From Rhodobacteraceae bacterium (ex Bugula neritina AB1) (GTDB lineage: Bacteria; Pseudomonadota; Alphaproteobacteria; Rhodobacterales; Rhodobacteraceae), in NCBI GenBank assembly GCA_001730095.1, contig MDLF01000012.1:1-44441 (forward strand): a DNA stretch of 44,441 nucleotides, given 5' to 3'. Made by a program: the position numbers and the translations under genes. Positions 1,308 to 33,525 of the stretch are shown piece after piece (position 1 is the stretch's first letter; every line of letters begins with the position of its first letter). The notes beneath the pieces are model-generated. The model was not told where the DNA came from. It saw only the letters and a program-made list of their open reading frames with translations, and made no database searches.

Positions 1308-2177
1308 TCAGCCGTAGAGGTGGCTCCAGCTGGCGGCCAGGGCGCGGGCGGCCTCTGGCGGCAGGGCCATCAGCAGAAGGGCGCCGCAGTCAGTGGCGGC
1401 AAGGATTTGCAGCTGCGGTCCGGCGGGCAGCAGCAGGCATTCGGGCTTTGGTGCGGGCATCCGGGCCGAGGCCGGGCGGGCGGCCTTGGACATCAGCGCC
1501 TGGCGCACCGCGTCCAGTTGGCTGAGCAGCGCCTCTGGGCCGCTGGCCTGTGGCTGGCCTCCGCCGCTGGGACAATAAAGTGTGGCGCTGGCCCGTATGC
1601 TGGCCCGTTCGCAGGCCTGTGATGCCTCCAGTGCGGCGACCTGTGCCCGGAACCGGTCCAGCTGGGTGCTGCCGGTGGCTGCGGTGAGGGCGGCGGCCAG
1701 TGTCTCGGCTGAGCAACTGCCTGCGTCCTGCGGTGCGGCGCAGGGGCGGCGGCGGAAGGTGATCGCCTGACCCACCAACTGCCCGTCCGCCTGAGCCTCC
1801 AACCGGAGCAGGTGGCTGGCAAAAAGCTGCGCTGCTGCTGCTGGATCTTCGGCGGCCGCGGGTTCATCCGCTGCGCTGTTCAGGCTGAGGCCGGCCAGCC
1901 GACGCTGTGCGACAGTCAGGACGGCGGCCCGGCGGCCACCGATGCACAGGGTGATTTCACGGGGCAGAATGGTTTCGCTGATTTCACGCAGCACGGCGGC
2001 CTGGAAGCTGCCCGTGCCCGTGCCCTCGCCAGTGTCCGTGTCCGGATCAGTAGCCGTATCGGTACCTGTGCCAGGCGACGCTCCGGCGGGCTGGGCCAGA
2101 CGGATCAGGGCCTGAAGCAGCGGACCGGGCAACGCGGCGCCGGCGGATTGGCGGGCTGGCTTAGCCATCATTGCCAC
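1308..2177 (-). CDS. Cassette A unknown protein (terminal gene)
   Basis: A 289-residue protein I do not recognise. The first residues are followed by a low-complexity Thr/Asp/Gly stretch at about 34-58. The rest looks like a mixed alpha/beta globular domain, including an REITLCIGGRRAAVLTVAQRRL segment around 70-90. The C-terminus has hydrophobic beta-like runs (LQILAATDCGALLLMAL). Its counterpart in cassette B, at the same position next to the roadblock-like gene, shares the LCxxxGxxxAxLxVxxRRLxxL pattern and the overall size, so the two are probably homologous although divergent. There is no signal peptide or membrane segment. The start drawn is a GTG overlapping the previous gene by 17 bp; an ATG 6 bp further in is equally possible. 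Probably a cytoplasmic accessory of the GTPase module. Confidence 0.65.
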   Translation of the reverse strand: MAMMAKPARQSAGAALPGPLLQALIRLAQPAGASPGTGTDTATDPDTDTGEGTGTGSFQAAVLREISETILPREITLCIGGRRAAVLTVAQRRLAGLSLNSAADEPAAAEDPAAAAQLFASHLLRLEAQADGQLVGQAITFRRRPCAAPQDAGSCSAETLAAALTAATGSTQLDRFRAQVAALEASQACERASIRASATLYCPSGGGQPQASGPEALLSQLDAVRQALMSKAARPASARMPAPKPECLLLPAGPQLQILAATDCGALLLMALPPEAARALAASWSHLYG

Positions 2178-2547
2178 CGTTCAGCTGTGCCAGCAGCTGC
2201 CGGGCCGGGGCTGCCAGGCGGGCGGCTGCCCCGGCATCAGCACAGACGCAGAGCACTGCATCGCCGGAACCGCCGACAGCGCGCAAGAACAGCCGGGCCT
2301 CGCCGGGCGCCAGTACCAGCACGTCCTGGGCTGCGGCTGCCGCAACACTGCCGTTGGCGCCCGCTGCGGCATCCAGAGCCAGAAAGCCCCGGCGGGCTTG
2401 CTGGCACAGATCGTCGAGGTATTCCTGGGGCCGGGCGGTTTCGCTGCTGCTGCGCAGCACGATGCTGGCGCCAAGGTCGCCAAAAGCGGCCAGGCGGCAG
2501 CCGGGATCCATTTGGCGCAATGCATCGAGCTGGCAGGTCAGAGTCAT
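2161..2547 (-). CDS. Roadblock/LC7-like small protein, cassette A
   Basis: A 128-residue protein whose layout fits the roadblock/LC7 fold. A first helix (LDALRQMDPGC) leads into a beta strand (RLAAFGDLGASIVL), then a long helix (EYLDDLCQQA), then paired strands (DVLVLAPGEARLFLRAV, DAVLCVCA), and finally a helix (AARLAAPARQLLAQL). Bacterial roadblock proteins such as MglB bind and regulate small GTPases as dimers. That makes sense here: it sits 60 bp downstream of GTPase 2 and overlaps the next gene. The cassette B paralogue has the same predicted topology with low identity. The fold is assigned by eye; no catalytic residues are expected, and the GTPase-regulator role is inference. Confidence 0.6.
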   Translation of the reverse strand: MTLTCQLDALRQMDPGCRLAAFGDLGASIVLRSSSETARPQEYLDDLCQQARRGFLALDAAAGANGSVAAAAAQDVLVLAPGEARLFLRAVGGSGDAVLCVCADAGAAARLAAPARQLLAQLNGGNDG

Positions 2548-2607
2548 TGGCGGTTTCCGCAGCGGGGCGGCACATCAGTTGGTGCAGGGCTTGGCAGCAT
2601 GGCGGTT

Positions 2608-3603
2608 TCAGTCTCCGGCAGAAGGGGTTTCGGGACGCCGGCTGCGCCGGGACGGCGCGGAGACCCGGCGTGGCACAACGTGCAGGCCGCTGGTGGCATC
2701 CGCTGGGGCAGCGGTTCCCCGGGGCTGCGGCTGGGCCTGAGACTGAGACTGAGACTGAGACTGAGACTGAGCAGCGGCATCACGCAGGCCGCCAATATCA
2801 AGCACCTCGGCCCGCAGCATCTGGTCGGGCTGCAGCGCCGGTGTCGCGGCGGCGGGCTGCTGGTGCGGCCTGGGACGGTGCGGCTCGGACCAGTTCAGCA
2901 GGAGGTCGACCAGATATTCGATAAAGCCGTCGGCACCGCTGTTTTTCCACGCGTCCATGTCCTCGCCCGCGGCCAGAGCCTGGCTCAGCGACAGCGGGAA
3001 CACCGCGTTGAAGCCGTCGCCGGCTTCCTTGTGCACCCGGCGCAGCACCCGGTCGCGGTCGCGTGGGGTTCTGAGTTTGTCGAAATGGGTGACCAGCAGG
3101 GTGCTGGGGGCGTCGAGCCGGGCAGAGATTTCTTCCCATGCGGCGGCCTCCGACTGGCGCCAGGCCTGGGTGGCATGGGTGCACCAGATCACGCTGTCCA
3201 CCTCGGGAAGCAGGTTCTGCCAGACGCTGGCTGGCATATTGGGGTCGGAGATCCCCGGCATATCGATCAGGTCGCAGAGCTCCAGCGGTTCGGCGGGCAG
3301 GGTCAGCCGGATCAGCGCGGTGGTTTCCAGCGGTGCTTCGGCCAGATCCGCCAGCGCCACCGGACTCTCGCTGCCGTCGGGTCCAACCAGGCAGGCGCCT
3401 TCGTCCCCGTGGGAGATCCAGACTGGCGGCAGGCGGGTGGCGGTGACCTTGGTGGGCAGCGGCTGGCGGCCGACAAGCAGATTGGTCAGAGTGCTTTTGC
3501 CGGCGCTGAATTCGCCCATCAGCGCCAGCCTTGGCTTGCGGGCAGCGGCGGCTTTGGATGCGGTGGCGGCAGGGGCGGGCTGCTGGGCAGCTTGTGGGGT
3601 CAT
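2608..3603 (-). CDS. Small dynamin-related GTPase 2, cassette A
   Basis: A 331-residue GTPase. The P-loop is GEFSAGKS at residues 30-37, the switch region contains TKVTATRLPPVWI (51-63), G3 is DMPG (114-117), and the G4 position reads THFD (172-175) instead of the canonical NKxD. A cysteine/tryptophan segment, IWCTHATQAWRQSEAAAW (139-156), is strongly conserved with the cassette B copy. After about residue 240 the protein becomes a Pro/Ala/Gln-rich tail with a Ser-Gln repeat (279-289) coded by a hexanucleotide repeat. It ends in a basic segment around HVVPRRV (308-314). The start codon overlaps the dynamin stop by 4 bp (ATGA), indicating coupled translation. It probably works as a partner of the upstream dynamin at the membrane; this role is inferred. 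Confidence 0.8.
   Translation of the reverse strand: MTPQAAQQPAPAATASKAAAARKPRLALMGEFSAGKSTLTNLLVGRQPLPTKVTATRLPPVWISHGDEGACLVGPDGSESPVALADLAEAPLETTALIRLTLPAEPLELCDLIDMPGISDPNMPASVWQNLLPEVDSVIWCTHATQAWRQSEAAAWEEISARLDAPSTLLVTHFDKLRTPRDRDRVLRRVHKEAGDGFNAVFPLSLSQALAAGEDMDAWKNSGADGFIEYLVDLLLNWSEPHRPRPHQQPAAATPALQPDQMLRAEVLDIGGLRDAAAQSQSQSQSQSQAQPQPRGTAAPADATSGLHVVPRRVSAPSRRSRRPETPSAGD
2737..2770 (-). repeat. Hexanucleotide (GACTGA)n repeat inside GTPase 2-A
   Basis: Five perfect GACTGA copies at 2741-2770, preceded by a partial CTGA. On the coding (minus) strand this encodes alternating Ser-Gln in the disordered tail. Because the unit is 6 bp, slippage changes tail length by two residues per copy without a frameshift. 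Confidence 0.9.
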
Positions 3604-5660
3604 TCCGTGAAACTCCTGAGTGTTTCCAAGGCTGTATTGGTTTCGGTCTGGCGCTGCCCGGCCTGATCCCCGGTAAACAGCGCCTGCATGTCGCCGCCGC
3701 CGCTGCTGCAGTCGGCAATCTCCAGCAGGATGTCGCGCTGATCGTCAAAGAAGCCTTGCAGCCGGGCCAGGACCGCCGCCTGGGCGTCCGCCGTTTGCAC
3801 AGTCTTGAGCTGGGTCATGAAGTCCTGTGTTTCGCCGGCAATCAGCGTGCGGAACTGTTTGGCAAAGGCTTTGTAGCCACGGGTGCGGCGCCACCAGGAT
3901 GCCCACCAGCTGTCATTGAAATCGAGCGCAATGGATTGAGCCAGCGCCACCGGAGAGGCGGGCTGCGGCACCTCGGGGACGGCCAGCTGGATGCCTTCAA
4001 CCGCAGGGCCGAAACTGTCGTATAGCAGCTCTGCCACGTCCCGCACGGCGCCTTCGTAGCGTGTTTGCGCGGTGGTTTGCAGGCGGCTGGCCATGACAGA
4101 ATAGGCGGAACGCAAAAGCATCCGCAGGCCGGCCGGGTCATACTCCCAATGGCAGTCCTCGCCCCATTTTTCCAGATGGTCGATCAGCGCGTGGGTGGCG
4201 CGGTCGGTGAATGTGGCATGGGCCCGGTCGGCGCGGTCGCGGAAGCCATCCAGCACCCGCCCGGCTTCGACTTCCAGCGTCTCGAGATGGGTCCGGCAGA
4301 TGTCTTCAAACGCGGTGCGGATGTCGTGCATGTGGGCACCGCCGCCACCGCCGTCGCCCTGCACCATGACGGCGTTGGCGGCCTGCTGGCCGGTGGCCGC
4401 AGTGGTCGCGGTGGCGGCAATGCGCGCCAGCAGCGGATTTCCCAGATCGGTGACGATGCGTTCGCTGACGGCGCGATTGAGGGCCGGGAGGCCGGACAGT
4501 TCCCAAACCATGTTCTGTGGCGTCGCCTTGGCATGGGTGGCGTTGACCGAGGCTTCGGCCCAATTCAGCAGCGCGGCAGAGCTGGTGGCATCCATATCCT
4601 CCATCCCGCCGGTCAGCACCTTGTTTGCCCAATAGGCGCTGCCAAAGATGATCTCTGCCGTCTGCGGGCCGTGATGGGTGTCGAGCGTCTGCCGGATGCT
4701 GGCTTCGATCTCGGCGATCTGATTTGCCGGGTCGGCCAGCTCGTCGATGCGGTTGACGAAAATCACCACTTCGCGCGATTTGAGGTTGGAGATCATCCGG
4801 ATCAGCCCCATGTCGACCGACGTCAGCGCCTGGCCCGCCGACAGCACCACCACGCAGATGCGGCTGTCGCGGATGGCCTGGATGGTGATCTGCTCGCGCA
4901 TCATGAAGGTGTCGTTGACACCTGGTGTGTCGCGCAGGCACAGCCGGTGCGGCACTGACTGGCTATTGAGATACAGATCGGCGGCGCGGGTGATGTCGGC
5001 AAAGCGGCCCTGCTCGTCCAGTTCGCCCAACCCGTCGTCATCAAAATCATCGCCAAGGCAGATATAGCGTTCGATCAGGTTCTTGTCGAAATAGCCGTAG
5101 TCGTGTTTCTGCCCCATCAGCAATTCGAACTTGCGGCCCAGACGCTGGCGCGAGCGTTCGCGCATTTCTTCGATCTGGGTGCGGATTTTCTGCAGCTCAC
5201 TGCCCGCGCCGGCCCGGCCCGCCATCTCGCCGATACGGCCGCCCTTGGTGGTCAGCCGGTCCCATTCCTCTTCGGTCATGAACTGGAAACTGGCCTTGTT
5301 CTCGGTGCGGGTTCCGCCCGGCTCCAGATGCAGCGAGGTGACAACAGAGGTCCAGGGGTTCACGTCGGAGGGCAGCAGATCCGCCCAGCCGGCCATGGCG
5401 TTGATCAGCGAGGTTTTGCCGGATTTCACCTGCCCCAGCAGGGTGACGGATGGTTCAAAGGCGGCCAGTTCCGCTTGTAGGCGGGTCAGGCTGCGCTGCA
5501 CCCGTTCGCCAGAGACATCATGCAGGGCGGCCAGCGCGCCGTCGAGCCTGCGGCCCCTGCGGGCAAAAGCCGCCAGCGGTTCCAGCCCGGCGCTGAGATT
5601 GGTGGGGCGGGCAGAGGCGCGGATGTCGGTGGCGCTCTCTATCTGGGTTTCCATGTGCAT
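3600..5660 (-). CDS. Dynamin-family large GTPase, cassette A
   Basis: A 686-residue bacterial dynamin-like protein. GTPase motifs are G1 GQVKSGKT (76-83), a G2 Thr in NPWTSVVT (101-108), G3 DTPGVND (244-250) and G4 NRID (303-306). The remaining ~380 residues are mostly helical, as expected for a dynamin stalk. A Gly-rich break lies near 436-442. A striking SWWASWWRRTRGY segment at 584-596 is conserved in the cassette B copy and resembles a lipid-binding tip: aromatic, then basic. Such proteins usually assemble on and remodel membranes. It follows GTPase 1 by 84 bp and shares a 4-bp overlap with GTPase 2. The first ATG is used here; a second lies two codons in. The family call is firm; the membrane target is unknown. 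Confidence 0.9.
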   Translation of the reverse strand: MHMETQIESATDIRASARPTNLSAGLEPLAAFARRGRRLDGALAALHDVSGERVQRSLTRLQAELAAFEPSVTLLGQVKSGKTSLINAMAGWADLLPSDVNPWTSVVTSLHLEPGGTRTENKASFQFMTEEEWDRLTTKGGRIGEMAGRAGAGSELQKIRTQIEEMRERSRQRLGRKFELLMGQKHDYGYFDKNLIERYICLGDDFDDDGLGELDEQGRFADITRAADLYLNSQSVPHRLCLRDTPGVNDTFMMREQITIQAIRDSRICVVVLSAGQALTSVDMGLIRMISNLKSREVVIFVNRIDELADPANQIAEIEASIRQTLDTHHGPQTAEIIFGSAYWANKVLTGGMEDMDATSSAALLNWAEASVNATHAKATPQNMVWELSGLPALNRAVSERIVTDLGNPLLARIAATATTAATGQQAANAVMVQGDGGGGGAHMHDIRTAFEDICRTHLETLEVEAGRVLDGFRDRADRAHATFTDRATHALIDHLEKWGEDCHWEYDPAGLRMLLRSAYSVMASRLQTTAQTRYEGAVRDVAELLYDSFGPAVEGIQLAVPEVPQPASPVALAQSIALDFNDSWWASWWRRTRGYKAFAKQFRTLIAGETQDFMTQLKTVQTADAQAAVLARLQGFFDDQRDILLEIADCSSGGGDMQALFTGDQAGQRQTETNTALETLRSFTE

Positions 5661-5744
5661 TGCGGAGCCTGTTTGATGTTTTGTTCTGGTGTTTTCTGCT
5701 GCCCGGCGGGCGGGTTCCAGCGGGGGATATGGGCAGTGCGGGGA

Positions 5745-6965
5745 TTACTCTGGCGGGTCTTCCATCAGTTCCTTTTTCAGCTGGATCAGCAGTGTCACCG
5801 CGTCGACCGCCGCATTTTCATCTTGTTCCAGCTGGCACAGCATCAGCATTTCCTCGCCGTCCTGCACGGCGGTGCGGGCGGCTTCGGCTGCGGCACCGGC
5901 GGGCAGGGTGTCGAGTGACTGCGACAGGCTGCGGATCATCTCCATGCAGTTCGCCAGCACCGGGCCGGCCTGGGCGCCGCCTGCGGCTTCGGCCTCGGCC
6001 AGCATCGCCTGGGCGCCGGTTTGCAGCTGGTCGAGCGCGGCGGCGAGGCAGGCGGTTTGCGGTGCGGCGCGGGACACTGCCGGGGCCGATGCTGCCGGGC
6101 CCTGTGTTGTGACTGTTGCTGCCGGTGTGCTCTGCGGTGGCAGGGTGCCACCGAACTGGCGGATCAGCAGCTCTGCCTGATCGACGTCCGAGGCGCGGCC
6201 CAGCTGGACCTGACGTTGCACGTCTTCGGCCAGCTGCTTGCCGCCGCTGGACCGCCAGAGACCGTCCTGCGGGGTCTCTGCAGAGCGGGCGGTGAGCCCC
6301 TGGATTGCGGCGACCGGATAGACGCCGAGGAACTCTTCTGCGGCCACCGGCTGCAGGGCCTCGATCACAGCGGGCAGGGTGCCGCGCATCACCTGGCGGT
6401 CGGCCATGGTGAGAACAAGGAAACTGTGATCCTTTGTGCTGTCGGGCATCGCGGCCCAGAGCGCCTGCTCGGCACCGGAAAAATCCTGGCTGCACCACAG
6501 GAAGATGTCGGCGCTTGCGGCGGCCTGCTGCAGCATCTCGTGCTGCGCGGCCTGCGGGCCGGCCAGCGGCAGTTCGCGAAAGCTGTGCCAGCGCAGCCGC
6601 GGGTCGGGCAGGGTCTGGCGCACCCGGCGGGCGTCCTGCGGCAGCTCCTGCTGTGCCAGCAGCCCCGGCAGCTGCAGGCGCTGACCTGCGGCGGTTTCAA
6701 TTTCAACCTGTTCCCGGGCGCCATGGCAGACATCGATCAGCAGGCCATTGCCGCTACGGCCGATCACCACCCGGCTCAAAAGCATGTCGATCAGGGCGGA
6801 TTTACCGCTGCCTGGGCTGCCCGCGACCGCCACCCGCACCGGCTGGCGCAAGCGCTGCAAGAGCTGGCTGCCCCAGCCGCAGATCTCTGACGGCAGCTGG
6901 CCTGCGCTGAGCGTCTGTTCAAGCTGGCCTGCCAGCGGGCTTATGTCTCTCTGAGGAAGGCTCAC
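5745..6965 (-). CDS. Small GTPase 1 (degenerate), cassette A
   Basis: A 406-residue P-loop protein with G1 GSPGSGKS at residues 49-56. The G3 aspartate-glycine motif is not recognisable, and the G4 position reads TMAD, so GTP hydrolysis or base specificity may be altered. A conserved IFLWCSQDFSGAEQALW segment parallels IWCTHATQAW in GTPase 2, which suggests common ancestry. After a Pro/Ala-rich middle, the C-terminus carries a helical motif (LEQDENAAVDAVTLLIQLKKEL) that is clearly shared with the cassette B copy. The GTG start overlaps the PP2C stop codon by 4 bp, so the two are translationally coupled. That coupling places it between the phospho-signalling half and the dynamin half of the cassette, possibly as an adaptor; this is inferred. 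Confidence 0.75.
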   Translation of the reverse strand: MSLPQRDISPLAGQLEQTLSAGQLPSEICGWGSQLLQRLRQPVRVAVAGSPGSGKSALIDMLLSRVVIGRSGNGLLIDVCHGAREQVEIETAAGQRLQLPGLLAQQELPQDARRVRQTLPDPRLRWHSFRELPLAGPQAAQHEMLQQAAASADIFLWCSQDFSGAEQALWAAMPDSTKDHSFLVLTMADRQVMRGTLPAVIEALQPVAAEEFLGVYPVAAIQGLTARSAETPQDGLWRSSGGKQLAEDVQRQVQLGRASDVDQAELLIRQFGGTLPPQSTPAATVTTQGPAASAPAVSRAAPQTACLAAALDQLQTGAQAMLAEAEAAGGAQAGPVLANCMEMIRSLSQSLDTLPAGAAAEAARTAVQDGEEMLMLCQLEQDENAAVDAVTLLIQLKKELMEDPPE

Positions 6966-7981
6966 GCGGATGCATCCGTCTTGCTGCGGCCAACCTCTGG
7001 CGCCGCGCGCCAGGAAGAGGTGGCCATGAAGGTGACAACCCGGCGGCCAGTCCGCTGATGGGCGGCAGCGGGGGAGGGTTCAGGCGGCGGCGGGTCTGCA
7101 GCCTGAACCTGCGCTGTATCGGGCTGCTGCGGTGGTACGGCGGCATTTGCGGCAGCGGATTCAGGCTGCACAGGCAGCGGTGCCTGCGGATCAAAGGGTT
7201 TGATCACGCAGAAGGCGGCGTTGTCCTGCTCTGGCGCATCCAGAACCTTCAGCCGCCGCATCAGCGCGGCCCCGATGCGGGCGCTGGAGCTGTGGCATTC
7301 GGCGTCCAGCACTTCGGCTATCTCTTCTTCTGTCAGGAACAGAAGCCCGTCGCTGGCAGCCAGCACGATATCGCCGTGCTGCAGCCGCACCGGCGCGCTG
7401 CGGCAGTCGATCTGCGGAATGTCGGCGCCGGTCAGCACCGAGGTGACGCAGTGTCGGTCCGGGTGGGTGGCGGCCTCGGTTGCGTCCATCCGGCCCCGGG
7501 CAACCAGCTTTTCCAGCTCTGCCGCCATGGAATGATCGGCATTGAGCCGGATCAGGGCGCCGTCGCGGAACAGGTAGAGCGGTGAATCCCCGACTGAAAT
7601 CCAGTACAGCCGGTCACGAAACAGCACCGGCGCCAGCAGGGTCGCGCCCATGCCGCGGGCCTGCAGCTGCGGCTGATGGCTGGCGTATTCACCAAGGCAG
7701 GCGTTGGCGCCATCGGCGGCGCCATGCAGGATTTCGCCGATGGCGGGCTCCAGCTGTTCCGGATCGCCCGCGCGCAGCTTCAGCTCTGCGAATACTTCGG
7801 TCACCACGATCCTGGCTGCGACATCGCCGGCCGCATGGCCGCCCATACCGTCGGCCAGCACTGCAAAACCGGTGCCGGAGCCAGCCAGAAAGTCGGCGGC
7901 AACGGCATCCTCCTGACGCGCGCGGCGGCCCTGGCTGATGGCGGTCGCGGCGTCGTATTCAAGTTCAGCGGAGTGCAGCAT
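6962..7981 (-). CDS. PP2C-family Ser/Thr phosphatase, cassette A
   Basis: A 339-residue PPM/PP2C phosphatase, expected to remove phosphate from Ser/Thr in a metal-dependent way. Motifs in order are RQEDAV near the N-terminus (metal-binding Asp), FAVLADGMGGHAAGD (the hallmark DGMGG), GMGATLLAPV, WISVGDSPLYL, HGDIVLAASDGL, and QDNAAF near the end of the domain. The last ~85 residues form a Pro/Ala-rich tail ending with GRRVVTFMATSS. I chose the ATG at 7981 because it gives a 17-bp overlap with the FHA gene, exactly as in cassette B; an ATG 12 bp upstream has no proper spacing to a ribosome site. It presumably opposes the nearby kinase. Confidence 0.92.
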   Translation of the reverse strand: MLHSAELEYDAATAISQGRRARQEDAVAADFLAGSGTGFAVLADGMGGHAAGDVAARIVVTEVFAELKLRAGDPEQLEPAIGEILHGAADGANACLGEYASHQPQLQARGMGATLLAPVLFRDRLYWISVGDSPLYLFRDGALIRLNADHSMAAELEKLVARGRMDATEAATHPDRHCVTSVLTGADIPQIDCRSAPVRLQHGDIVLAASDGLLFLTEEEIAEVLDAECHSSSARIGAALMRRLKVLDAPEQDNAAFCVIKPFDPQAPLPVQPESAAANAAVPPQQPDTAQVQAADPPPPEPSPAAAHQRTGRRVVTFMATSSWRAAPEVGRSKTDASA

Positions 7982-9260: not shown

Positions 9261-9271
9261 TGCCGTTTCCT

Positions 9272-13153: not shown

Positions 13154-13172
13154 TCAATCAGGAGCCACGCAA

Positions 13173-14360: not shown

Positions 14361-14363
14361 CCC

Positions 14364-15356: not shown

Positions 15357-15377
15357 ACAAAAACTGGAAATAACCGG

Positions 15378-16918: not shown

Positions 16919-16942
16919 GCTTTGGTTCCGGCAAATATCCAG

Positions 16943-20563: not shown

Positions 20564-20600
20564 ACGACATCCGCCAGTCGGGCGGCAAAGGGACAATAGA

Positions 20601-21011
20601 ATGACGAAGCGCATTAAACAGGCGATCATTATTGACGACGATGAGGTCGATCAGCGGATCTACAGGCGGGTTATGGACCGCTCCGGACTGGTGGATAACG
20701 TCCTGTGCTTCACTTATGCGGATGAGGCGCTTGCCCATCTGATCGCAAATCCGGACCTTGAGGTGGATGTCATCTTTCTGGACATCAACATGCCGCGGAT
20801 GAACGGCTTTGAATTCCTGGATGCCGCAATGCAGGAATTCGGCAGCGCCTTTGCCAGAATGGTGGTGGTGATGCTGACCACCTCGCTGCATCCAGAGGAT
20901 GAGCAGCGCGCCAAAGGCATGGAGGTTGTCAAGGAATTCATCCGCAAGCCGCTGACGGTGGAGCATGTCGCAGAGGTTGCCAAATTGCTGGAACAGCGCG
21001 AACCGCAGTAG
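20601..21011 (+). CDS. CheY-like response regulator
   Basis: A 136-residue lone receiver domain with acidic pocket D12-D14, phospho-acceptor D61 in FLDINMP, switch T93 and conserved K116 in IRKPL. There is no output domain. It lies 37 bp downstream of a histidine kinase and is its natural partner, forming a two-gene system whose output must be a protein contact or a further phosphorelay step. It also lies just upstream of the cassette B kinase, separated by 477 bp. A 7-bp GC hairpin at 21041-21063 follows its stop codon and may end the transcript. Confidence 0.9.
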   Translation: MTKRIKQAIIIDDDEVDQRIYRRVMDRSGLVDNVLCFTYADEALAHLIANPDLEVDVIFLDINMPRMNGFEFLDAAMQEFGSAFARMVVVMLTTSLHPEDEQRAKGMEVVKEFIRKPLTVEHVAEVAKLLEQREPQ

Positions 21012-23420: not shown

Positions 23421-23453
23421 CCTCTCCAAGACTTCCACCTGACCACCAATAAC

Positions 23454-23468
23454 GGGCGGCCCGCCTTT
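23454..23468 (+). terminator. Small hairpin after the cassette B kinase
   Basis: A 4-5 bp GC stem (23454-23458 with 23462-23466) followed by TTT, 33 bp after the kinase stop codon. It is short, so at most a partial terminator before the LysM genes. Confidence 0.3.
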
Positions 23469-23523
23469 CCCGCGGCCGCTCACCGGGAGAGCTTTGCCTC
23501 CTGCACCGACAAGGACAGATTAC

Positions 23524-24726: not shown

Positions 24727-24816
24727 CTGACCTCCCCCCAATCCCCTAATCCCCCAAGATCACTGCCTTCAGGCCTCTGGGCGTCACGGCGGTGCCATTG
24801 AAAAGGAACTAAACTC

Positions 24817-25914: not shown

Positions 25915-25921
25915 ACCATTC

Positions 25922-25959
25922 TTCCGGCCATGCCCTGCTTGCTGCGGGCATGGCCGGGA
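25922..25959 (+). terminator. Perfect 12-bp hairpin between LysM and FHA genes
   Basis: Arms 25924-25935 and 25946-25957 are exact reverse complements with a 10-nt loop; two more pairs, one of them G-T, extend the stem to 25922/25959. There is no T-run. It lies 8 bp after the LysM protein 2 stop codon and 120 bp before the FHA gene. Partial termination or protection of the upstream mRNA is likely. Confidence 0.6.
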
Positions 25960-26080
25960 CATCCGCCCGGAGCATGGAACAGGCGGAGCAGAATCCGCGG
26001 CAGCGGCAGACAAAATCAGGGGCAGCCGGGCAGTTACCAGACCCGCTTTGCTACCTGTGAAGAGCAAAAAGGCAGACGAC

Positions 26081-26929
26081 ATGGGATTTTTCGGAAAACT
26101 TATTGGACGCCAGGACACGCACAGCGGGCCTGAACCGATGGACAGGCTGCGGGTCGCAGATGAGACGATGCAGCAGGAAGTACTGCAGGCCGTGGCACAG
26201 CACACCCGTACCGTGGAGCTGGATCTGGATCTGAACCCGCAGCCGGACCAGTACGACAGCAGCCAGCCAGAGACCGCTACCGCTGCCGCGGATCCGGTTG
26301 CCGTTGCGGGCATCTGGGACCTGGATCCGGCTTCTGCTGCCCCCGCAGCCCCGCCTGCGCCGGCAGCTGACGAGACCGCTGCGCAGATGCCGCAGCCTGG
26401 CGGCGAGATGCCGGATCTCACGGCCCATGTCAGCGTGGCCCCCGCCCGCAAACGCCGTGCCAAGACCCGCCTCTTGGGCTTTGACACCTCGGATGGCGAT
26501 GTCGTCAATCTGTTCGACAATTCCGCCCCCGCGGCACCGGTTCGCGACACAAAATTCCCGGTGGGCTGGCTCGTGGTCGCCGACGGACCCGGCTATGGCG
26601 AAAGCTTCACGCTGCAGGCTGGCATGTCTGCCATCGGCCGCGGCGAGGATCAGGCGGTTGCGCTGGATTTCGGCGATACTGCAATTTCCCGCAACAACCA
26701 CGCGGCGATTGTCTTTGACCCGGAAACCTCGCAGTTCTTCCTGGGCCACGGCGGCAAGAGCAATATCGTGCGCCTGAATGGTCAGCCGGTGATCAGCAAT
26801 GAAGCGCTGAAGAGCGGCGATCAGATCCGTCTCGGCGAAACCACGCTGCGTTTCATGGCGCTGTGCGGCGAAGACTTCAACTGGACCAGCGCCGGCACAC
26901 AGGAGGCAGAACATGTGGAAATCGCCTGA
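26081..26929 (+). CDS. FHA-domain phospho-Thr reader, cassette B
   Basis: A 282-residue protein with an FHA domain at about 162-265: AIGRGED, ISRNNHA and VRLNGQPV carry the conserved Arg, Ser, His and Asn. The N-terminus MGFFGKLIGR matches the hydrophobic/basic start of the cassette A copy. A disordered Ala/Pro/Asp-rich stretch follows, then the conserved basic motif RRAKTRLLGFD and a VVNLFD segment. The ATG at 26081 is preferred over earlier starts because it restores this N-terminal match. It overlaps the PP2C gene by 17 bp, as in cassette A. It probably recruits phosphorylated partners of the membrane kinase. Confidence 0.9.
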   Translation: MGFFGKLIGRQDTHSGPEPMDRLRVADETMQQEVLQAVAQHTRTVELDLDLNPQPDQYDSSQPETATAAADPVAVAGIWDLDPASAAPAAPPAPAADETAAQMPQPGGEMPDLTAHVSVAPARKRRAKTRLLGFDTSDGDVVNLFDNSAPAAPVRDTKFPVGWLVVADGPGYGESFTLQAGMSAIGRGEDQAVALDFGDTAISRNNHAAIVFDPETSQFFLGHGGKSNIVRLNGQPVISNEALKSGDQIRLGETTLRFMALCGEDFNWTSAGTQEAEHVEIA

Positions 26930-27863
26930 ACCACGCTTTGACGTTGCTGCCGCCATTTGCCAGGGCGCACGCGACTATCAGGAAGACGCCATCATCACCG
27001 ATTTTCCGGCAGGCACCGATATCGGCATGGCCGTTCTGGCGGATGGCATGGGTGGCCATGCTGCTGGCGATGTCGCCTCCAAAATGGTGGTGACCGAGGC
27101 CTTCAGCAATCTGAAGTTCGAGAGCGTCAATTTTGCCGAGTATGAAAAGCAGATCCCCTATCACCTGACCCGCGCCGCGTCAGAGGCCAACAGCTGTGTG
27201 CAGGACTATGTCCAGGACAATCCCAGTGTGCGCGGCATGGGGGCCACCCTGGTGTCGGTGGTGATGATCGAGGACCGCCTGTACTGGCTGTCGATTGGCG
27301 ACTCGCCGCTGTATCTGATGCGCGGCGGCAAGCTGCAGCAGCTCAACGAGGATCACTCGATGGCGCCGCAGATCGACATGATGGTCAAGGCGGGGCTGCT
27401 GGACGAGGCCGCCGGACGGGATCACCCGGATCGCAACTGCCTGACCTCGGTCATCCTGGGCGACCGGGTGACGCGCACCGACTGCCCCAAGGCGCCGTTC
27501 CGGCTGGAAGTCGGGGATCTGGTGGTTGTCTCCAGCGACGGGCTGCAGTTTCTGGAAGATGCGCGGATCGGAAAGATCCTGCACAAATACCGTCGCCGCA
27601 AGAGTGCGGAAATCGTTGAACGGCTGCTGGCGGCGCTGGATGAACTGGCGGACCCGGATCAGGACAATATCTCCTTTGCGGTGATCAAGCTGAACCACAA
27701 CAAGCCGGTGACCCGCAAAATGCACCGCAAGCCGCTGGATCTGGTCGGTGACCAATCAGCCACTGCAACCCGTGTGGTGGCGATGAACAGCAATTCCAGC
27801 GACGGGCCGTCGATGCCGGAACAGGAGGCCAAGGTGGTTCGGCTGGCCGGGAAAGGGCGCTAG
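26913..27863 (+). CDS. PP2C-family Ser/Thr phosphatase, cassette B
   Basis: A 316-residue metal-dependent phosphatase. Motifs are YQEDAI (N-terminal metal Asp), MAVLADGMGGHAAGD, RGMGATLVSVV, YWLSIGDSPLYL, VGDLVVVSSDGL and PDQDNISF. A ~60-residue tail ends with ATRVVAMNSNSSD and a basic VVRLAGKGR. The tail pattern RVVxM/FxxxSS is shared with the cassette A enzyme. AGGAGG six bases before the ATG, inside the FHA gene, marks the start well. It is followed 2 bp later by GTPase 1. It should reverse the phosphorylation carried out by the cassette B kinase. Confidence 0.93.
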   Translation: MWKSPEPRFDVAAAICQGARDYQEDAIITDFPAGTDIGMAVLADGMGGHAAGDVASKMVVTEAFSNLKFESVNFAEYEKQIPYHLTRAASEANSCVQDYVQDNPSVRGMGATLVSVVMIEDRLYWLSIGDSPLYLMRGGKLQQLNEDHSMAPQIDMMVKAGLLDEAAGRDHPDRNCLTSVILGDRVTRTDCPKAPFRLEVGDLVVVSSDGLQFLEDARIGKILHKYRRRKSAEIVERLLAALDELADPDQDNISFAVIKLNHNKPVTRKMHRKPLDLVGDQSATATRVVAMNSNSSDGPSMPEQEAKVVRLAGKGR

Positions 27864-27865
27864 GC

Positions 27866-29185
27866 ATGGCACAAGCGCAGAGCACCGAAACCGCTGCCGC
27901 GCTGCGGTGCGCATTGGCAGAAGGGCAGATCCCGGCCCGCCTGCAGGCTGCTGCCCAGAGCGTGCTGGACACGCTGGAGCAGCCGGTGCGGGTGACGCTG
28001 TTCGGCCTGCCCGGCGCGGGCAAGTCCAGTGTTGTGAACCTGCTTCTGGGCAGCCCGGTGCTCCCGGCGGGTGCGGCGCTGCCCACCCTGCAGATCACCA
28101 GCGGCGCAGCCGCGGCCTGCAGCGGTGTTTTGGCGGACGGCAGCCGCTTCAGCCTGCCCGGGTTCGACACCGCGGCGCTGGCTGCAAGGGCTGCGGTCTT
28201 TGCCGAGGCACAGTTGCCGCTGCCTGCGCTGAACCGGATCAACGTGCTGGAAATTGCAGCGCCGGATGCGGTGGCGCTGGACCGGGCGGTACCCTGGGCT
28301 GCGCAGAAAACAGACATCGCCCTGTGGTGCACCCAGGCCTTCACCGCGGCGGAACAGGCTGCATGGGCCAGAGCCCCGGAGAAGATGAAGGACAGCGCAA
28401 TCCTGCTGGTTGCCAAGGCCGATGAACTGGCGGCTCAGGGGCGGCTGCAGCCTGCGCTGGCCGCCATTCAAAGCGCCGCAGGTGAGCATTTCAATCAGGT
28501 GCTGCCGCTGGCCGCTCTGGACGCGCAGGCGGCGCGGCGGCAAGACGGCACCGTGGACCGCGACCGGTTGCGCCGCACGGGCGGACAGGCGCTGATTTCC
28601 GCGATCATGCACGAGGCGAACCTACGGCAGCAGGCCGCGCTGGACCGGGCCGGCGACCTGCTGAGAACATGCGCAGTGGCGCCCGCAGCCATCCCGGCTG
28701 CAGCACCCGCACCTGTTCAGACCGCTTTCGAACCGGAACCCGCGCCCGCGATGGCGCCGCCGGCACAGCCGCCGCAGGACGGTCCGCCCACCGTCCAAGC
28801 CGCGCTGCCGGGTCCGGTCCCCGTCCAGGCGGCTGCAGCGGAGCACTCTGGCCTCAGCCCGCAGGTGCGACAGGCCTACGGCGCGGCACTGGACTATCTG
28901 ACAGAACAGGGGCACAGCCTGGGCCAGGCCTGGCAGGGCACTGCAGACCAGAACGCCCCGCGGCTGATCCGGGACACCCTGAAATCGGTGCAATGGCTGG
29001 GCGACTATCTGGAAGACTGCGACAGCAGCGGCGACAGTGGGCTGGCAGGCATACGCGGCGCGGTCTCTGAGGCCGAAGACCTGATCCAGCTGATCCAGGT
29101 GGAACAGGACGACACGTCGCTGTTTGATGCCACCAGCATCCTGCTGCAGCTGAAACGGGATATGCAGGCACAGCTGGCCGCCTGA
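27866..29185 (+). CDS. Small GTPase 1 (degenerate), cassette B
   Basis: A 439-residue P-loop protein with G1 GLPGAGKS at residues 47-54. The G3 site is unclear, and the G4 position reads AKAD, closer to NKxD than in the cassette A copy (TMAD). The IALWCTQAFTAAEQAAW segment is shared with both GTPase families of the cassettes. A Pro/Ala-rich linker (~265-330) precedes a helical C-terminus with the conserved VEQDDTSLFDATSILLQLKRD motif. It begins 2 bp after the phosphatase and is the last plus-strand gene of cassette B; the dynamin half then runs toward it from the other side. Probably an adaptor between phospho-signalling and dynamin; inferred. Confidence 0.75.
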   Translation: MAQAQSTETAAALRCALAEGQIPARLQAAAQSVLDTLEQPVRVTLFGLPGAGKSSVVNLLLGSPVLPAGAALPTLQITSGAAAACSGVLADGSRFSLPGFDTAALAARAAVFAEAQLPLPALNRINVLEIAAPDAVALDRAVPWAAQKTDIALWCTQAFTAAEQAAWARAPEKMKDSAILLVAKADELAAQGRLQPALAAIQSAAGEHFNQVLPLAALDAQAARRQDGTVDRDRLRRTGGQALISAIMHEANLRQQAALDRAGDLLRTCAVAPAAIPAAAPAPVQTAFEPEPAPAMAPPAQPPQDGPPTVQAALPGPVPVQAAAAEHSGLSPQVRQAYGAALDYLTEQGHSLGQAWQGTADQNAPRLIRDTLKSVQWLGDYLEDCDSSGDSGLAGIRGAVSEAEDLIQLIQVEQDDTSLFDATSILLQLKRDMQAQLAA

Positions 29186-29210
29186 TCCCGGCCTGCAAGA
29201 ACGCCAATCA

Positions 29211-29238
29211 GGGTTTTCACCTTATAGGGTGAAAACCC
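29211..29238. terminator. Bidirectional terminator at the centre of cassette B
   Basis: A perfect 11-bp stem (29211-29221 with 29228-29238) and a 6-nt loop separate the convergent halves of cassette B. The left gene ends 25 bp before it. The TAA of the right gene lies in the loop, so the stem contains that gene's last codons. Confidence 0.65.
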
Positions 29239-30016
29239 GCTGCCACATGCCGTGCAGTGCTGCCAGATCGTCCCGGCTGTGGGCAAAGAGCGCGCATTCG
29301 CCTCCTGCCCAGACCACCGACACGCATAGGCCGCCCTCCAGAACCGGGCCAAGCGACACCAGCCGTGGCGTTTCCAGCGGGCCTGCATGTTTGGCAAAAG
29401 AGGCCTGGAAACGCTCCCATTGGACTTCGGCAATCTGTTGCAGTTCGGTCAGAACCGCCTGATCCGCAGCCGCACCCATCCAGGCGCCGCCGGAATGCAG
29501 CAGGCAGGCCGCATAAAGCTCGGCGCTGGCATCAATGAAGAAAGCCATGGGCCGTTCCTGCTCGGCCGGGTCCAGGTCCATGATCTCTTCCAGCATCGTC
29601 AGGGGCAGCCCCAGGCTGCCCAGACCGCTGTCCGCAGCGGCGGCGGCAAATCCGGTTTCGACCAGAACGGGCTGTTCCATTTGCGCCAGCCGGACCATCG
29701 CCGCAGCCACCGCTTCCAGAACCTCCGGCTGGTCATGCGACAGGGCGGTTCCGATCAGCGGCTGGGCTTCAGCCAGATCGCTGCTGGCCGAAACCAGCGA
29801 CATCAGGCGCCGTTCGGACACCACAAGAGCAAGATGGCTGTCGCCGGCATGAAAACACAGCTGCCGTTGCAGAACCGTGGTGGCAATCTCTTGCAGGATG
29901 GCAGGCAGCGGCGGCGGAAAGCAGCCGTTGGAAATCACCCGTTTGCCATCCCGGAACACGGTTTGGCGGGCGCCCAGGGCAGCCAGGTTCCCGGCAATTG
30001 CGTCGTCGTGTGTCAC
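29222..30016 (-). CDS. Cassette B unknown protein (terminal gene)
   Basis: A 264-residue protein I do not recognise; it is the positional counterpart of the last gene of cassette A. Shared features are a central LCFHAGDSHLALVVSERRLMSL segment, similar length and the same place after the roadblock-like gene. It lacks the Thr/Asp repeat of the A copy. It has acidic helices in the middle (LTMLEEIMDLDPAEQ) and a beta-rich C-terminus (GLCVSVVWAGGECALF). There is no signal peptide or membrane segment, so it is probably cytoplasmic. Its 3' end runs into the terminator hairpin. A role as partner of the roadblock-like protein is suggested by their constant pairing only. Confidence 0.65.
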   Translation of the reverse strand: MTHDDAIAGNLAALGARQTVFRDGKRVISNGCFPPPLPAILQEIATTVLQRQLCFHAGDSHLALVVSERRLMSLVSASSDLAEAQPLIGTALSHDQPEVLEAVAAAMVRLAQMEQPVLVETGFAAAAADSGLGSLGLPLTMLEEIMDLDPAEQERPMAFFIDASAELYAACLLHSGGAWMGAAADQAVLTELQQIAEVQWERFQASFAKHAGPLETPRLVSLGPVLEGGLCVSVVWAGGECALFAHSRDDLAALHGMWQRVFTL

Positions 30017-30055
30017 TTTGAAAATCCTGTTCGAAAGGCGTCTTGCACGGGTCTG

Positions 30056-30421
30056 TCAGCCCTCTGCGCTGATCCGGACCAGACAGGCCTGTGCGGCAAT
30101 CTGAAAGGCGGCCAGATCCAGTTCGGGGGCGGCCAGGCACAACAGCGCATCTGTTGGCTGCTGCGGTGACTTGAAGGCAAGCAGGAGCCGGCCGGTTTCC
30201 CGTGCCAAGGCAAAGTCCGGCGCAGCAGCGCCAAGCGGCGGCGTGCCGTCCCCGCCCAGCAGGCAACCTGCCTGGGCACACAGCTTGTCCAGCGCATGGC
30301 GGTCCAGCGTCGACTGGCTGTTGGCCACCAGGACCATGCCCGCAGCCAGATCCGCATAGGCCACCGTCCCGCAGGCGGGAAACTGGCCGTGCAACGCATC
30401 AAGTTCTTCCGATACAGTCAT
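30056..30421 (-). CDS. Roadblock/LC7-like small protein, cassette B
   Basis: A 121-residue protein from the ATG at 30421, which follows CAAGGTCGC; the open frame extends 16 codons further but without a ribosome site. Predicted elements follow the roadblock order: helix (ELDALHGQF), strand (GTVAYADLAAGMVLVA), helix (RHALDKLCAQA), strands (GRLLLAFKS, DALLCLAA), last helix (LAAFQIAAQACLV). It sits between GTPase 2 and the unknown protein, as in cassette A. Roadblock proteins often act as GTPase-activating or scaffold dimers. The assignment rests on fold pattern, not on a close match. Confidence 0.6.
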   Translation of the reverse strand: MTVSEELDALHGQFPACGTVAYADLAAGMVLVANSQSTLDRHALDKLCAQAGCLLGGDGTPPLGAAAPDFALARETGRLLLAFKSPQQPTDALLCLAAPELDLAAFQIAAQACLVRISAEG

Positions 30422-30508
30422 AAAAGCGACCTTGCCTGAAGGGCCGGTTCTGGCCGGCCCGCAGGACAATTCACAACCGCAACGGCGGCTGGATTACAAG
30501 CCTCTTTT

Positions 30509-31447
30509 TCAGCTCTCCAGCAATTCCCGGCGCAGGGACGCAAGATCGCTGTCCCTGCGCGCGTCGGGACGCGGTGTGCGCTTGGCGCCCTGGGGCCGCA
30601 CCCGCCGCGGAACAACATGGCCGGTTGGCACCTCCTGCAGGCTGTCTGCCTGGACCGGGGCCTGGGGCTGTTCCAGCACCGCCGCCAGCGGCGCGACAAA
30701 GGAAGAGGCAGGGGCAGGCGAAGCTGCGGCGGCTGCGGCAGCTTGCAAGACGGGCGGCGTGCCGCCCTGCTGGGCCGCCTCGACAATCGCCTCCAAGGCT
30801 GCAGTGAAGTCTTGGGCGCCGGAGGTTTCCCAATCCGGGCTGTCAGGTTCGGCCGCCAGCGCCTGGGTCAGCGAGATCGGGCAAACGCCGGCAAACTGGC
30901 CCTCGGTCTCGCGCGTGACCCGGGTCTGCACCCGCAGCTTGTCCAGCGGCGTGGTCAGCTTGTCGAACCGGGTGATCAGCAGCAGGCTGCGCTGGCGCAC
31001 CTCCTCAGCCACCAGCCCCCAGGCCGCCGCCTCTGACTGCCGCCAGGCCTGTGTTGCATGGGTGCACCATAACACGCAGTCCACCTCGGCCAGCATCCGT
31101 TCCCAGACCTCTGGTGGCATGTTGGGGTCGGAGATGCCGGGAAAGTCGATCAGATCGCAGGCTTCCAGCACCGGCGCCTCGCAGCTGATCTGCACATACA
31201 GCGTTTCTTCCAGTGGCACCGCCTCCAGCGCCTGCAGCGAGACCGGATGACGGCGGCCGTCCAGCGCCTTGCGCGAGGGCGCGGCGTCCCCTTCGGTGAT
31301 CCAGACTGGCGGCAGCCGAGTGGCGGTGACCTTTTCGGGCAGAATACGCCGCCCCAGCAGCAGGTTCGACAGCGTGCTCTTGCCGGCGCTGAACTCGCCC
31401 ATGATGGCAATCCTGGGTTTGCGGTCCAGTGTCTGCGGTTGCGTCAT
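30509..31447 (-). CDS. Small dynamin-related GTPase 2, cassette B
   Basis: A 312-residue GTPase with G1 GEFSAGKS at 17-24, the switch segment EKVTATRLPPVWI, G3 DFPG followed by ISDPNMP, and TRFDKL at the G4 site. The LWCTHATQAWRQSEAAAW segment is nearly identical to that of the cassette A copy. A Pro/Ala/Gln linker without the Ser-Gln repeat ends in the conserved basic tail GHVVPRRVRPQGAKRTPR. Its start overlaps the dynamin stop by 4 bp, the same junction as in cassette A. Conservation of the odd G4 sequence in both copies suggests real constraint rather than decay. Likely works in a complex with the dynamin. Confidence 0.8.
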   Translation of the reverse strand: MTQPQTLDRKPRIAIMGEFSAGKSTLSNLLLGRRILPEKVTATRLPPVWITEGDAAPSRKALDGRRHPVSLQALEAVPLEETLYVQISCEAPVLEACDLIDFPGISDPNMPPEVWERMLAEVDCVLWCTHATQAWRQSEAAAWGLVAEEVRQRSLLLITRFDKLTTPLDKLRVQTRVTRETEGQFAGVCPISLTQALAAEPDSPDWETSGAQDFTAALEAIVEAAQQGGTPPVLQAAAAAAASPAPASSFVAPLAAVLEQPQAPVQADSLQEVPTGHVVPRRVRPQGAKRTPRPDARRDSDLASLRRELLES

Positions 31448-33525
31448 GCGGCGGCTCCTTTGCGGGCGGCTTGCGCCGGTTCGTCTGTCTGTTTCGCGCC
31501 GTCTGGCGCCAGTTCCTTCAGCAGCAGATCCAGCAGTTCTGCCTGCTCCTGCTGCGCGGTGATTCCGAACAGATTATTCAAGTCGTTCACGCTGATCCTT
31601 GTCTTTTCAGCCACATCCATCAGCAGCGCCCGCTGCTCGGTGAAAAATGCCATCAGGCGTTCGCGGGCGTCCTGGCGGATTTCAGCTGCCTGCTGTTCCT
31701 TCAGTTCCTGAACGATCGGCGCCGTTTCCGCCTTGATCAGATCATAAAAGCCGCTGGCATAGGCCCGGTATCCGCGGCGGCGTTTCCACCAGCTTTTCCA
31801 CCAGGAGGTTTGCAGATCCAGGGCAATAGTGGCACCGATCGCCACCGGCGGCGGCACTTCGGGCACGGCTGCGGGGGCGATACGGAAATCGCTGACCTGA
31901 ATCGAAACCGCCTGCTGGTAGGTGTCGAAGATTGCCGACGCGGCATCGCTGTAGACCTGGGTGCAGGCCGCCAGCAGGTTCTTGCGCATCACCTGATAGC
32001 TGGACCGCAGCAAAATCCGCAGACCGTCGGGTGCATATTGCCAGGTTTCGTTTTCGCCGTAGTTTTCCAGATGCTGCAGCAGGGACGCCACCGCCCGCTC
32101 CAGAAACTTGTTATGCGCCTGGTCAACCCTGGCAGAGAAAGCGGCAAACACCTGATCCAGCGCGGTGTCCATCTGCGCCATGCTGATGGTTTCCAGCCGT
32201 CCCAGCAGCTGGCTGAGTGCCGCAGGCTCGATCACCGAAATGCGGTTGCCGTCGATCCGCATAGAGGCCACGGTGCAGGCTGTCTTCATGCTGGACACCT
32301 GGTTGGCCGCGCGCTGACGGGTCTCGGACAGAAGCCGCGCACCGGCGCCTTCGGTCAGACGCGCGCCAATGGTTTCAAACAGCTCGGGCACGCCGGAGAG
32401 CTGCCACATCTGCTCTGGTCCGGCCAGCGCATCCGGCCCGGCATATTGCCGCAATGAAGCGGCGCTGTCATGGCAGAGCGGATAGGTTTCCGGCGCCAGG
32501 GCGGCATTGGCCCACAGGGCGCTGCCAAAAACGATCCTGGGGTTCTCCGGGCCGTTCATTTTCTCCAGGGTCGCCAGGATGCTGTCGCGGATATCCGGGA
32601 TCTGGTTCACCGGGTCCGGCAGCTCGTCTATCCGGTTCACAAAAATCACGATGCCTTCCGACCGCACATTGGAGATCATCCGGATCAGGCCCATGTCAAC
32701 CGAGCTCAGCGCCTGGGAGGCAGACAGCACCACCACGCACAGGCGGCTGTTGCGCAGCGACTTGATGGTGATCTGCTCACGCATCAGGAAGGTGTCGTTG
32801 ACGCCGGGCGTGTCGCGCAGGCACAGCGGCACCGGCAGCGAAGGCAGCGGCAGAAACAGGTCGGCAGATTTGGTGATATCAGCAAAACGGCCCTGCTGAT
32901 CGCTGCTGCCTGCCATTTCGAAATCATCGCCCAGACAGACATAACGCTGCATTAGATCGTCATCCAGATGCCGGTAATCATGCTTCTGGCCCAAAAGCAG
33001 CTCAAACCGGCGGCCCAGCCGCTTGCGGGTCTTTTCGCGCATTTCCGCGACCTGAGCCTGGATTTTCTGCAGCTCCTCAGCAGCGCCTGCGCGCATCGAC
33101 AGCTCCCCGATACGGCCGCCGCTGGACACCAGATGGTCCCATTCATCGCCGTTGAAGAACTGGAAGGAGGCCACCGGGTCGCCATCCTTGCGCGGTGCAT
33201 TCAGATGCAGCGAGGTGACAACCGAGGTCCAGGGGTTCACATCTGCAGGCAGCAGGCCGGGGCGGGCCACCATTGCATTGACCAGAGAGGTTTTGCCGGA
33301 TTTGATCTGCCCGATCATCGTGACGCTGGGTTTGAAGTCTTCAAGCTCTTTCAGCAGGCGGCCGGTCTGGCTGCGGCCACCCGCCGCTTCCAGCGCCTGG
33401 ACGTCCAGCAAGAGATCTTGGAGATCCTCGATTTCGCCGGCAAGACTGGCAAGGCGGGCATGGCCTTGTTGCAGAAAAGGAAAACTTCCGGGATCAGCGG
33501 GCTGACAATCGGTGGTCTCATCCAT
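31444..33525 (-). CDS. Dynamin-family large GTPase, cassette B
   Basis: A 693-residue dynamin-like protein. Motifs are G1 GQIKSGKT (72-79), G2 in NPWTSVVT (97-104), G3 DTPGVND (238-244) and G4 NRID (297-300). The helical remainder includes the SWWKSWWKRRRGY segment at 574-586, matching cassette A and probably contacting lipid. A C-terminal helix with VNDLNNLFG replaces the Gly-rich end of the A copy. Identity with the A protein is high across the GTPase domain and patchy in the stalk. It is the first gene of the minus-strand half of cassette B, with an AT-rich promoter-like region upstream. Membrane remodelling is the expected activity. Confidence 0.9.
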   Translation of the reverse strand: MDETTDCQPADPGSFPFLQQGHARLASLAGEIEDLQDLLLDVQALEAAGGRSQTGRLLKELEDFKPSVTMIGQIKSGKTSLVNAMVARPGLLPADVNPWTSVVTSLHLNAPRKDGDPVASFQFFNGDEWDHLVSSGGRIGELSMRAGAAEELQKIQAQVAEMREKTRKRLGRRFELLLGQKHDYRHLDDDLMQRYVCLGDDFEMAGSSDQQGRFADITKSADLFLPLPSLPVPLCLRDTPGVNDTFLMREQITIKSLRNSRLCVVVLSASQALSSVDMGLIRMISNVRSEGIVIFVNRIDELPDPVNQIPDIRDSILATLEKMNGPENPRIVFGSALWANAALAPETYPLCHDSAASLRQYAGPDALAGPEQMWQLSGVPELFETIGARLTEGAGARLLSETRQRAANQVSSMKTACTVASMRIDGNRISVIEPAALSQLLGRLETISMAQMDTALDQVFAAFSARVDQAHNKFLERAVASLLQHLENYGENETWQYAPDGLRILLRSSYQVMRKNLLAACTQVYSDAASAIFDTYQQAVSIQVSDFRIAPAAVPEVPPPVAIGATIALDLQTSWWKSWWKRRRGYRAYASGFYDLIKAETAPIVQELKEQQAAEIRQDARERLMAFFTEQRALLMDVAEKTRISVNDLNNLFGITAQQEQAELLDLLLKELAPDGAKQTDEPAQAARKGAAA

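Follow-up and report, generated by a model that had tools for sequence, protein, structure and literature searches.

The 44,441-nucleotide stretch analysed here (the window; contig MDLF01000012.1 of Rhodobacteraceae bacterium (ex Bugula neritina AB1), contig C12 of genome G000 in our numbering) contains two paralogous eight-gene cassettes in which genes for threonine phosphosignalling are joined to genes for dynamin-type GTPases, an arrangement inherited as a unit in many roseobacter-type members of the Rhodobacteraceae. Cassettes A (1308–10606) and B (21489–33525) each encode a Ser/Thr kinase, an FHA protein, a PP2C phosphatase, a degenerate GTPase (G2), a dynamin, a dynamin-type GTPase (G1), a Roadblock protein and an eighth protein (unk). 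Each of the sixteen genes is an open frame at its expected position. Cassette A is a single collinear block on the minus strand, in the order kinase, FHA, PP2C, G2, dynamin, G1, Roadblock, unk. Cassette B consists of two convergent blocks, with kinase to G2 on the plus strand and dynamin to unk on the minus strand; two LysM/substrate-binding genes (23494–25914), extra to the eight, sit inside it. Among the matches listed, the nearest named relatives of the cassette A dynamin are from Leisingera.

All eight A/B pairs are homologous by blastp, as the initial annotation had proposed in describing two paralogous cassettes. Identities between A and B are 43% for the kinase (5e-83), 54% for FHA (7e-59), 48% for PP2C (1e-81), 29% for G2 (2e-29), 47% for the dynamin (2e-174), 58% for G1 (2e-80) and 35% for the Roadblock protein (1.7e-9). 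The weakest pair is unk, with 40% identity across 50 residues (4.5e-4), a local score reached by none of 500 shuffles (z ~9). The FHA and PP2C genes overlap by 17 bp in both cassettes (7965–7981 in A, 26913–26929 in B; the A PP2C start is taken at 7981, with an alternative at 7993), and the dynamin and G1 genes by 4 bp (3600–3603 in A, 31444–31447 in B). Both overlaps, correctly given in the initial annotation (whose 'GTPase 2' is G1 here and whose 'P-loop GTPase 1' is G2), recur in both cassettes of Leisingera sp. S132.

A scan of named genomes with both dynamins yields at least 110 relatives; the 80 best of these serve as the named loci. By profile, the full gene order is intact in 58 of these 80 (52 full-length, 6 short), which upholds the earlier view that the phosphosignalling and dynamin genes are inherited together. 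The remaining 22 miss, or do not show, at least one gene, and 11 of them are on short loci. No neighbour is constant enough to be a ninth member: the most frequent gene cluster ahead of the unit is shared by 14 of 75 loci, and the most frequent one following it by 5 of 73. In trees built for each of the eight genes from 62 complete cassettes, almost identical A (30 members, Jaccard 0.91–1.0) and B (18 members, 0.90–1.0) clades reappear from gene to gene; the two sets were defined from the dynamin ranking and best hits, and 14 of the 62 cassettes belong to neither. Despite their common genome, the two cassettes of the window fall on opposite sides in 8 of 8 trees, so the claim of two diverged versions also stands. 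Both Roadblock splits have low support (0.48), and the A split has moderate support in the FHA (0.74) and dynamin (0.82) trees.

The two halves of the cassette also occur together across the family. Among 394 genomes from 393 genera, a dynamin match is present in 102 (at 1e-3) and the FHA protein in 86 (at 1e-15); 81 genomes hold both, 21 the dynamin only, 5 FHA only and 287 neither (Fisher 2e-57, a test that ignores ancestry). Of the 74 dynamin hits with the highest scores, 72 have the FHA gene within 12 kb, versus 7 of the 55 others; the cut at 74 hits, near 44% identity, was chosen after the ranking was viewed. The initial annotation had warned that dynamins might occur widely without the kinase module; this applies to the weaker hits and not to the best ones. 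In eight genomes that contain both genes, none of the scored pairs falls within 12 kb. The genes are clearly apart in G003, G168, G221 and G385, where they share one contig or are distant from contig ends, and in the one-contig genome G003 the modules are 3.1 Mb apart along a 3.56-Mb contig. The separation in G147, G195, G292 and G296 is possibly due to contig breaks. Because the eight trees agree, the neighbours vary, and these eight genomes hold dynamin and FHA without a pair within 12 kb, the data argue for a modular system rather than a chance gathering. Blocks of kinase, FHA, PP2C and G2 with no dynamin in the fetched stretch are seen at loci L181, L182 and L190–L192, and the genome of L182 (G184) has no dynamin match anywhere.

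When 385 genomes of the class and 299 of the phylum (some of them of the same family) were searched by profile, no full-length dynamin match appeared outside the family; the best non-family matches reach no better than 4.6e-10 and cover short GTPase stretches. Dynamin candidates were scored up to two per genome within the family, and up to two and three in the class and phylum sets, so extra copies can be missed. In a plasmid collection the dynamin is found on 18 records (12 Leisingera, 5 Ruegeria, 1 Rhodobacter), and 18 of 18 are typed as non-mobilizable. Cassettes A and B are on two different plasmids in Leisingera sp. S132 and on one contig in the window. A tRNA-Arg(TCT) at 583–659 adjoins cassette A. 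Of 51 other loci scanned, four show the same arrangement, every one of them in Leisingera; the others have no tRNA or a different one. Since the tRNA-Arg is limited to these four and the window, it does not mark a general attachment site, and a genomic island at the tRNA was rejected. Some Leisingera A cassettes are plasmid-borne, though the tRNA-Arg adjoins A in the window and in the four Leisingera loci.

The dynamins of A (3600–5660, minus; Pfam Dynamin_N 2.1e-13) and B (31444–33525, minus; 2.5e-10) are full-length, and G1 (2608–3603, minus, 4.7e-10 in A; 30509–31447, minus, 4.3e-11 in B) is a dynamin-family GTPase domain without the long trunk; all four are above the Pfam cut-off for this GTPase domain. 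The P-loop, DxPG and N/TKxD-type motifs are each present in 141 of 142 dynamins. A WWxxWW sequence in the C-terminal part is found in 82 of 82 dynamins (loci L003–L082, which were retrieved via their dynamin, and the window). The best solved-structure matches are 5owv (3.5e-14), which we take to be the Campylobacter jejuni dynamin-like protein (DLP) pair, and 2j68 (BDLP, 4.4e-14), with Fzo1 next and weaker. The cassettes thus resemble bacterial DLP pairs such as C. jejuni DLP1/DLP2 and Nostoc BDLP in the sequence of their dynamin. They also resemble them in the adjacency of the genes, as an excerpt of PMC6104087 describes for most bacterial DLPs. However, each window cassette combines one full-length dynamin with a protein that is a GTPase domain only, and with a degenerate GTPase, and kinase, FHA, PP2C and Roadblock genes belong to the unit. 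Two full-length dynamins side by side are not found in the window cassettes; relatives such as Ruegeria sp. AD91A carry two within a single operon. The C-termini of G1 (window 2608–3603 and 30509–31447) carry a basic PRR[VI] sequence in 44 of 79 members, a possible docking or membrane-binding tail.

The initial annotation was right that G2 (5745–6965, minus, in A; 27866–29185, plus, in B) has a P-loop, but the other GTPase switch motifs are lost. Among G2 proteins of eight-gene cassettes the P-loop is kept in 75 of 78, and the switch-I-like and DxPG-SD patterns of the dynamin superfamily occur in 0 of 78; the corresponding counts for G1 are 62 of 79 and 75 of 79. In a GTPase tree of 110 sequences, for which every third cassette locus was used, the cassette G2 proteins form one clade (support 1.0, 26 members) nested in a larger split (0.91) with G2 from distant loci and five GTPases from a second cassette type described below. 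One G2-labelled Rhodobacter protein falls outside the larger split. The alternative that G2 is a zeta toxin (Pfam 2.5e-4, under the cut-off) was rejected, as G2 clusters with dynamin-type GTPases. The RefSeq label 'zeta toxin family protein' on the G2 relative of Leisingera sp. S132 (L214, 10514–11749) is probably wrong, because sequence comparisons group G2 with these GTPases.

The Roadblock protein (2161–2547, minus, in A; 30056–30421, minus, in B, which is part of the alignment used for the fold) has the a-b-b-a-b-b-b-a order of the Roadblock/LC7 fold. No Pfam Roadblock model matches any of 73 family members at E <= 0.1, and a single member gives a weak MAPKK1_Int match (0.014). The name 'Roadblock-like' is therefore correct by fold, although Pfam does not detect it in the window proteins. 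The C-terminal half of unk (1308–2177, minus, AlphaFold 2 pLDDT 83.7, in A; 29222–30016, minus, in B, likewise a member of the unk alignment) may be Roadblock/longin-like as modelled; the resemblance is weak and covers residues 169–289. The Roadblock protein, and weakly also unk, resemble parts of Ragulator, MglB and Mon1–Ccz1. As in MglA/MglB, the conservons, Ragulator–Rag and Mon1–Ccz1, Roadblock/longin proteins are found with GTPases, and in the conservons a histidine-kinase-like protein, a Roadblock protein and a GTPase share one operon (excerpt of PMC13343842). The cassette differs from all of these in that its GTPases are dynamin-family rather than Ras-like and its kinase is of the Ser/Thr type.

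The kinases of A (9272–10606, minus; open frame up to 10762; Pfam Pkinase 1.7e-28) and B (21489–23420, plus; 1.5e-31) belong to a family with HRD in 84 of 85 and DFG in 85 of 85 members. No transmembrane segment is flagged in the A kinase. The B kinase has one hydrophobic, transmembrane-like segment (hydropathy 1.9) and a C-terminal PDZ-like region, residues 558–641 of which give weak matches to PDZ-protease models, below cut-offs. Hydropathy of 1.8 or more is reached by no kinase of loci L003–L044, nor by that of A. The phosphatases (6962–7981, minus, Pfam PP2C_2 4.5e-12 and NCBIfam Stp1 1.6e-37, the latter below its cut-off, in A; 26913–27863, plus, PP2C_2 2.4e-11, in B) have DGxGG in 83 of 84 members. 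The A FHA protein (7965–9260, minus; Pfam FHA 2.4e-7) consists of a long low-complexity N-terminus, the threonine motif KTRLLGF and a C-terminal FHA domain; that of B (26081–26929, plus; 2.3e-7) also carries KTRLLGF. The motif [KR]T[RT][LFM][LI]G[FL] lies N-terminal to the FHA domain in 84 of 84 family members, a count that excludes the later loci L181–L200 and was obtained by widening a narrower pattern that gave 60 of 84. The N-termini (window 7965–9260) have an MKFIxDII-like start in 62 of 78 by a loose pattern, perhaps a membrane-binding helix.

The best solved-structure matches of the FHA protein are to GarA/Rv1827, including its pThr22 form, and OdhI is among the 14. The likeness to GarA/OdhI with PknG extends to a conserved threonine ahead of the FHA domain and a Ser/Thr kinase. 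However, the motif around the threonine and the kinase are different, and the neighbouring genes encode GTPases rather than tricarboxylic acid cycle enzymes. A further parallel lies in the two proteins inserted in cassette B, at 23494–24726 (plus; NCBIfam LysM 9.6e-7 and SBP_bac_3 0.0014, both below cut-off; named LysM plus substrate-binding in RefSeq for S132) and 24817–25914 (plus; Pfam LysM 1.1e-6, SBP_bac_3 0.0097 below cut-off; 36% identical to the first). They resemble the family of GlnH, which in the GlnH–GlnX–PknG–OdhI pathway controls the phosphorylation of an FHA switch (excerpt of PMC9769921). In contrast to that pathway, the version B kinase itself seems to be membrane-spanning.

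Based on these sequences, we put at about an even chance that the cassette is a self-contained Rhodobacteraceae dynamin system, in which an FHA switch set by kinase and PP2C controls a Roadblock-scaffolded dynamin at the membrane. The gene content and order, the joint inheritance and co-occurrence, the motifs and the Roadblock fold are observed, whereas a phospho-controlled membrane machine, as in the initial annotation, is a proposal. The scheme that we infer for the catalytic steps, physical contacts and membrane role is as follows. The core would be the full-length dynamin with its GTPase-domain partner G1 and its degenerate partner G2, and the Roadblock protein and unk would be two Roadblock/longin-kind regulators that dock the GTPases. 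The kinase would phosphorylate the invariant threonine of the FHA protein, and the phosphothreonine would be bound by the FHA domain of the same protein or of a partner, as in GarA/OdhI, so that the GTPase complex is released or recruited; PP2C would reset the switch. At the inner membrane, the output may be GTP-driven tethering or remodelling by way of the WWxxWW region. Version A, whose kinase lacks a membrane segment, would respond to an internal cue, and version B, with a membrane-spanning kinase, to a periplasmic one. In this genus the LysM/substrate-binding proteins are likely periplasmic sensors for version B, in the manner of GlnH upstream of PknG–OdhI.

Forty distant loci, hand-picked from the weaker family dynamin hits, indicate how the cassette may have been built. 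The fullest operon, in Ruegeria sp. AD91A, has the order dynamin 1, G1, Roadblock, unk, dynamin 2, G2, kinase, FHA, PP2C and substrate-binding protein, with nine genes confirmed by profiles (Roadblock 2.9e-15, unk 2.2e-12). There, and at L083, L085, L086 and L099, G2 keeps GEFxxGKS and DxPG. No second dynamin is seen in the eight-gene cassettes. The larger Ruegeria-type operon has a second dynamin and a G2 with GEFxxGKS and DxPG, and the eight-gene cassettes show no second dynamin and a degenerate G2. The window cassettes therefore resemble reduced forms: one GTPase would have been parted from its dynamin and become catalytically inactive, the order of events being a reconstruction. Other distant dynamin/GTPase pairs occur without kinase, FHA and PP2C. 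At five loci (L093, L094, L096, L097, L101) they form a second cassette type with a DSP-type phosphatase, a Roadblock protein, mostly unk, and the dynamin–GTPase pair; an ABC-type ATPase is present in 4 of the 5 (Pfam names taken from L093). A ferredoxin-reductase/globin-type gene is seen in 4 of the 5, and at L110 and L111 (Pfam on the L097 copy). At L112 one open frame combines a dynamin-type GTPase, a DSP phosphatase (Pfam) and a Roadblock domain (hhalign 99.8% to the Roadblock family, HMMER 1.2e-13), a fusion seen in none of the other frames searched. Roadblock C-termini on the GTPases of L089, L090, L091, L104, L106 and L109, and a separate L102 frame, appeared alike by eye and were rejected for want of hhalign support. 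In Rhodobacter sp. CZR27 (L216, 817–8844) a dynamin–GTPase–dynamin–GTPase series is followed by a histidine kinase, and for this reason yet another regulator may adjoin the dynamin core there.

More tentatively, and at rather less than an even chance, the system could be a membrane-traffic-like switch: a phosphothreonine relay would act through a Ragulator/Mon1–Ccz1-like scaffold on a dynamin that has two GTPase partners, one active and the other dead. Evolution would have kept the dynamin–GTPase core and swapped its regulator (kinase/FHA/PP2C, DSP-type phosphatase, perhaps others), and two versions would serve internal and periplasmic cues in some cells.

It is also conceivable, if unlikely, that the GTPases are a signalling scaffold, with Roadblock, unk, G1 and G2 acting like MglAB or Rag–Ragulator, the dynamin serving to sense or to tether, and the phospho-module directed chiefly at another target such as metabolism. 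The degeneracy of G2, the resemblances of the Roadblock protein and unk noted above, and the role of GarA/OdhI, the closest solved FHA relatives, as metabolic switches fit this; however, a full-length dynamin with WWxxWW is always retained in the loci fetched by dynamin, and only 5 of the 86 genomes with FHA lack the dynamin. A role in anti-phage defence or conflict, with the kinase module setting off membrane action upon infection, appears improbable. The PADLOC LeoA model matches the A dynamin (1.6e-10), the kinases match defence-kinase models, the distribution is patchy (102 of 394 genomes) and Leisingera and Ruegeria copies are plasmid-borne. However, a full-length LeoABC match is absent, the best LeoA and LeoBC (0.0014) stretches being partial, the kinase similarity is generic, and no defence model fires for FHA, PP2C, Roadblock or unk among the A versions scanned. 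The plasmids are non-mobilizable, and no defence-named gene was noticed in the annotated stretches read, although no defence scan of the flanks was made. The threonine-phosphorylation pathway of type VI secretion systems shares three protein kinds with the cassette, namely a kinase, a PP2C and an FHA protein. A regulator of this sort is very improbable and was rejected: VipA is found in 102 of 394 genomes and in only 28 of the 86 with the FHA gene (odds ratio 1.5, p 0.13), and of the three VipA matches in the window genome the two listed are on another contig, C44. A local gathering of unrelated genes is hardly credible for the main clade and was rejected in view of its collinearity, the agreement of the trees and the co-occurrence of the modules even when apart (as in G003), notwithstanding the distant dynamin–G1 pairs that lack the kinase module.

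No description of a system combining dynamin with FHA, PP2C, kinase and Roadblock proteins was found in the open-access literature (subscription papers and preprints being outside the scope), in agreement with the initial annotation. The parts each come from known families; the assembly is new. To our knowledge, the control of bacterial dynamins is largely open, and here candidate control genes are joined to a dynamin in one inherited unit in culturable marine bacteria. Because the unit offers a candidate phosphorylation site, names its reader and includes a GTPase regulator of the Roadblock type, on/off switching of a dynamin becomes directly testable, and Roadblock-type regulators are tied to dynamin-type rather than Ras-type GTPases.

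Between the two cassettes (16971–21011) the window also contains two histidine kinases and a substrate-binding protein (18137–18970), together with what appears by eye to be a response regulator (20601–21011).

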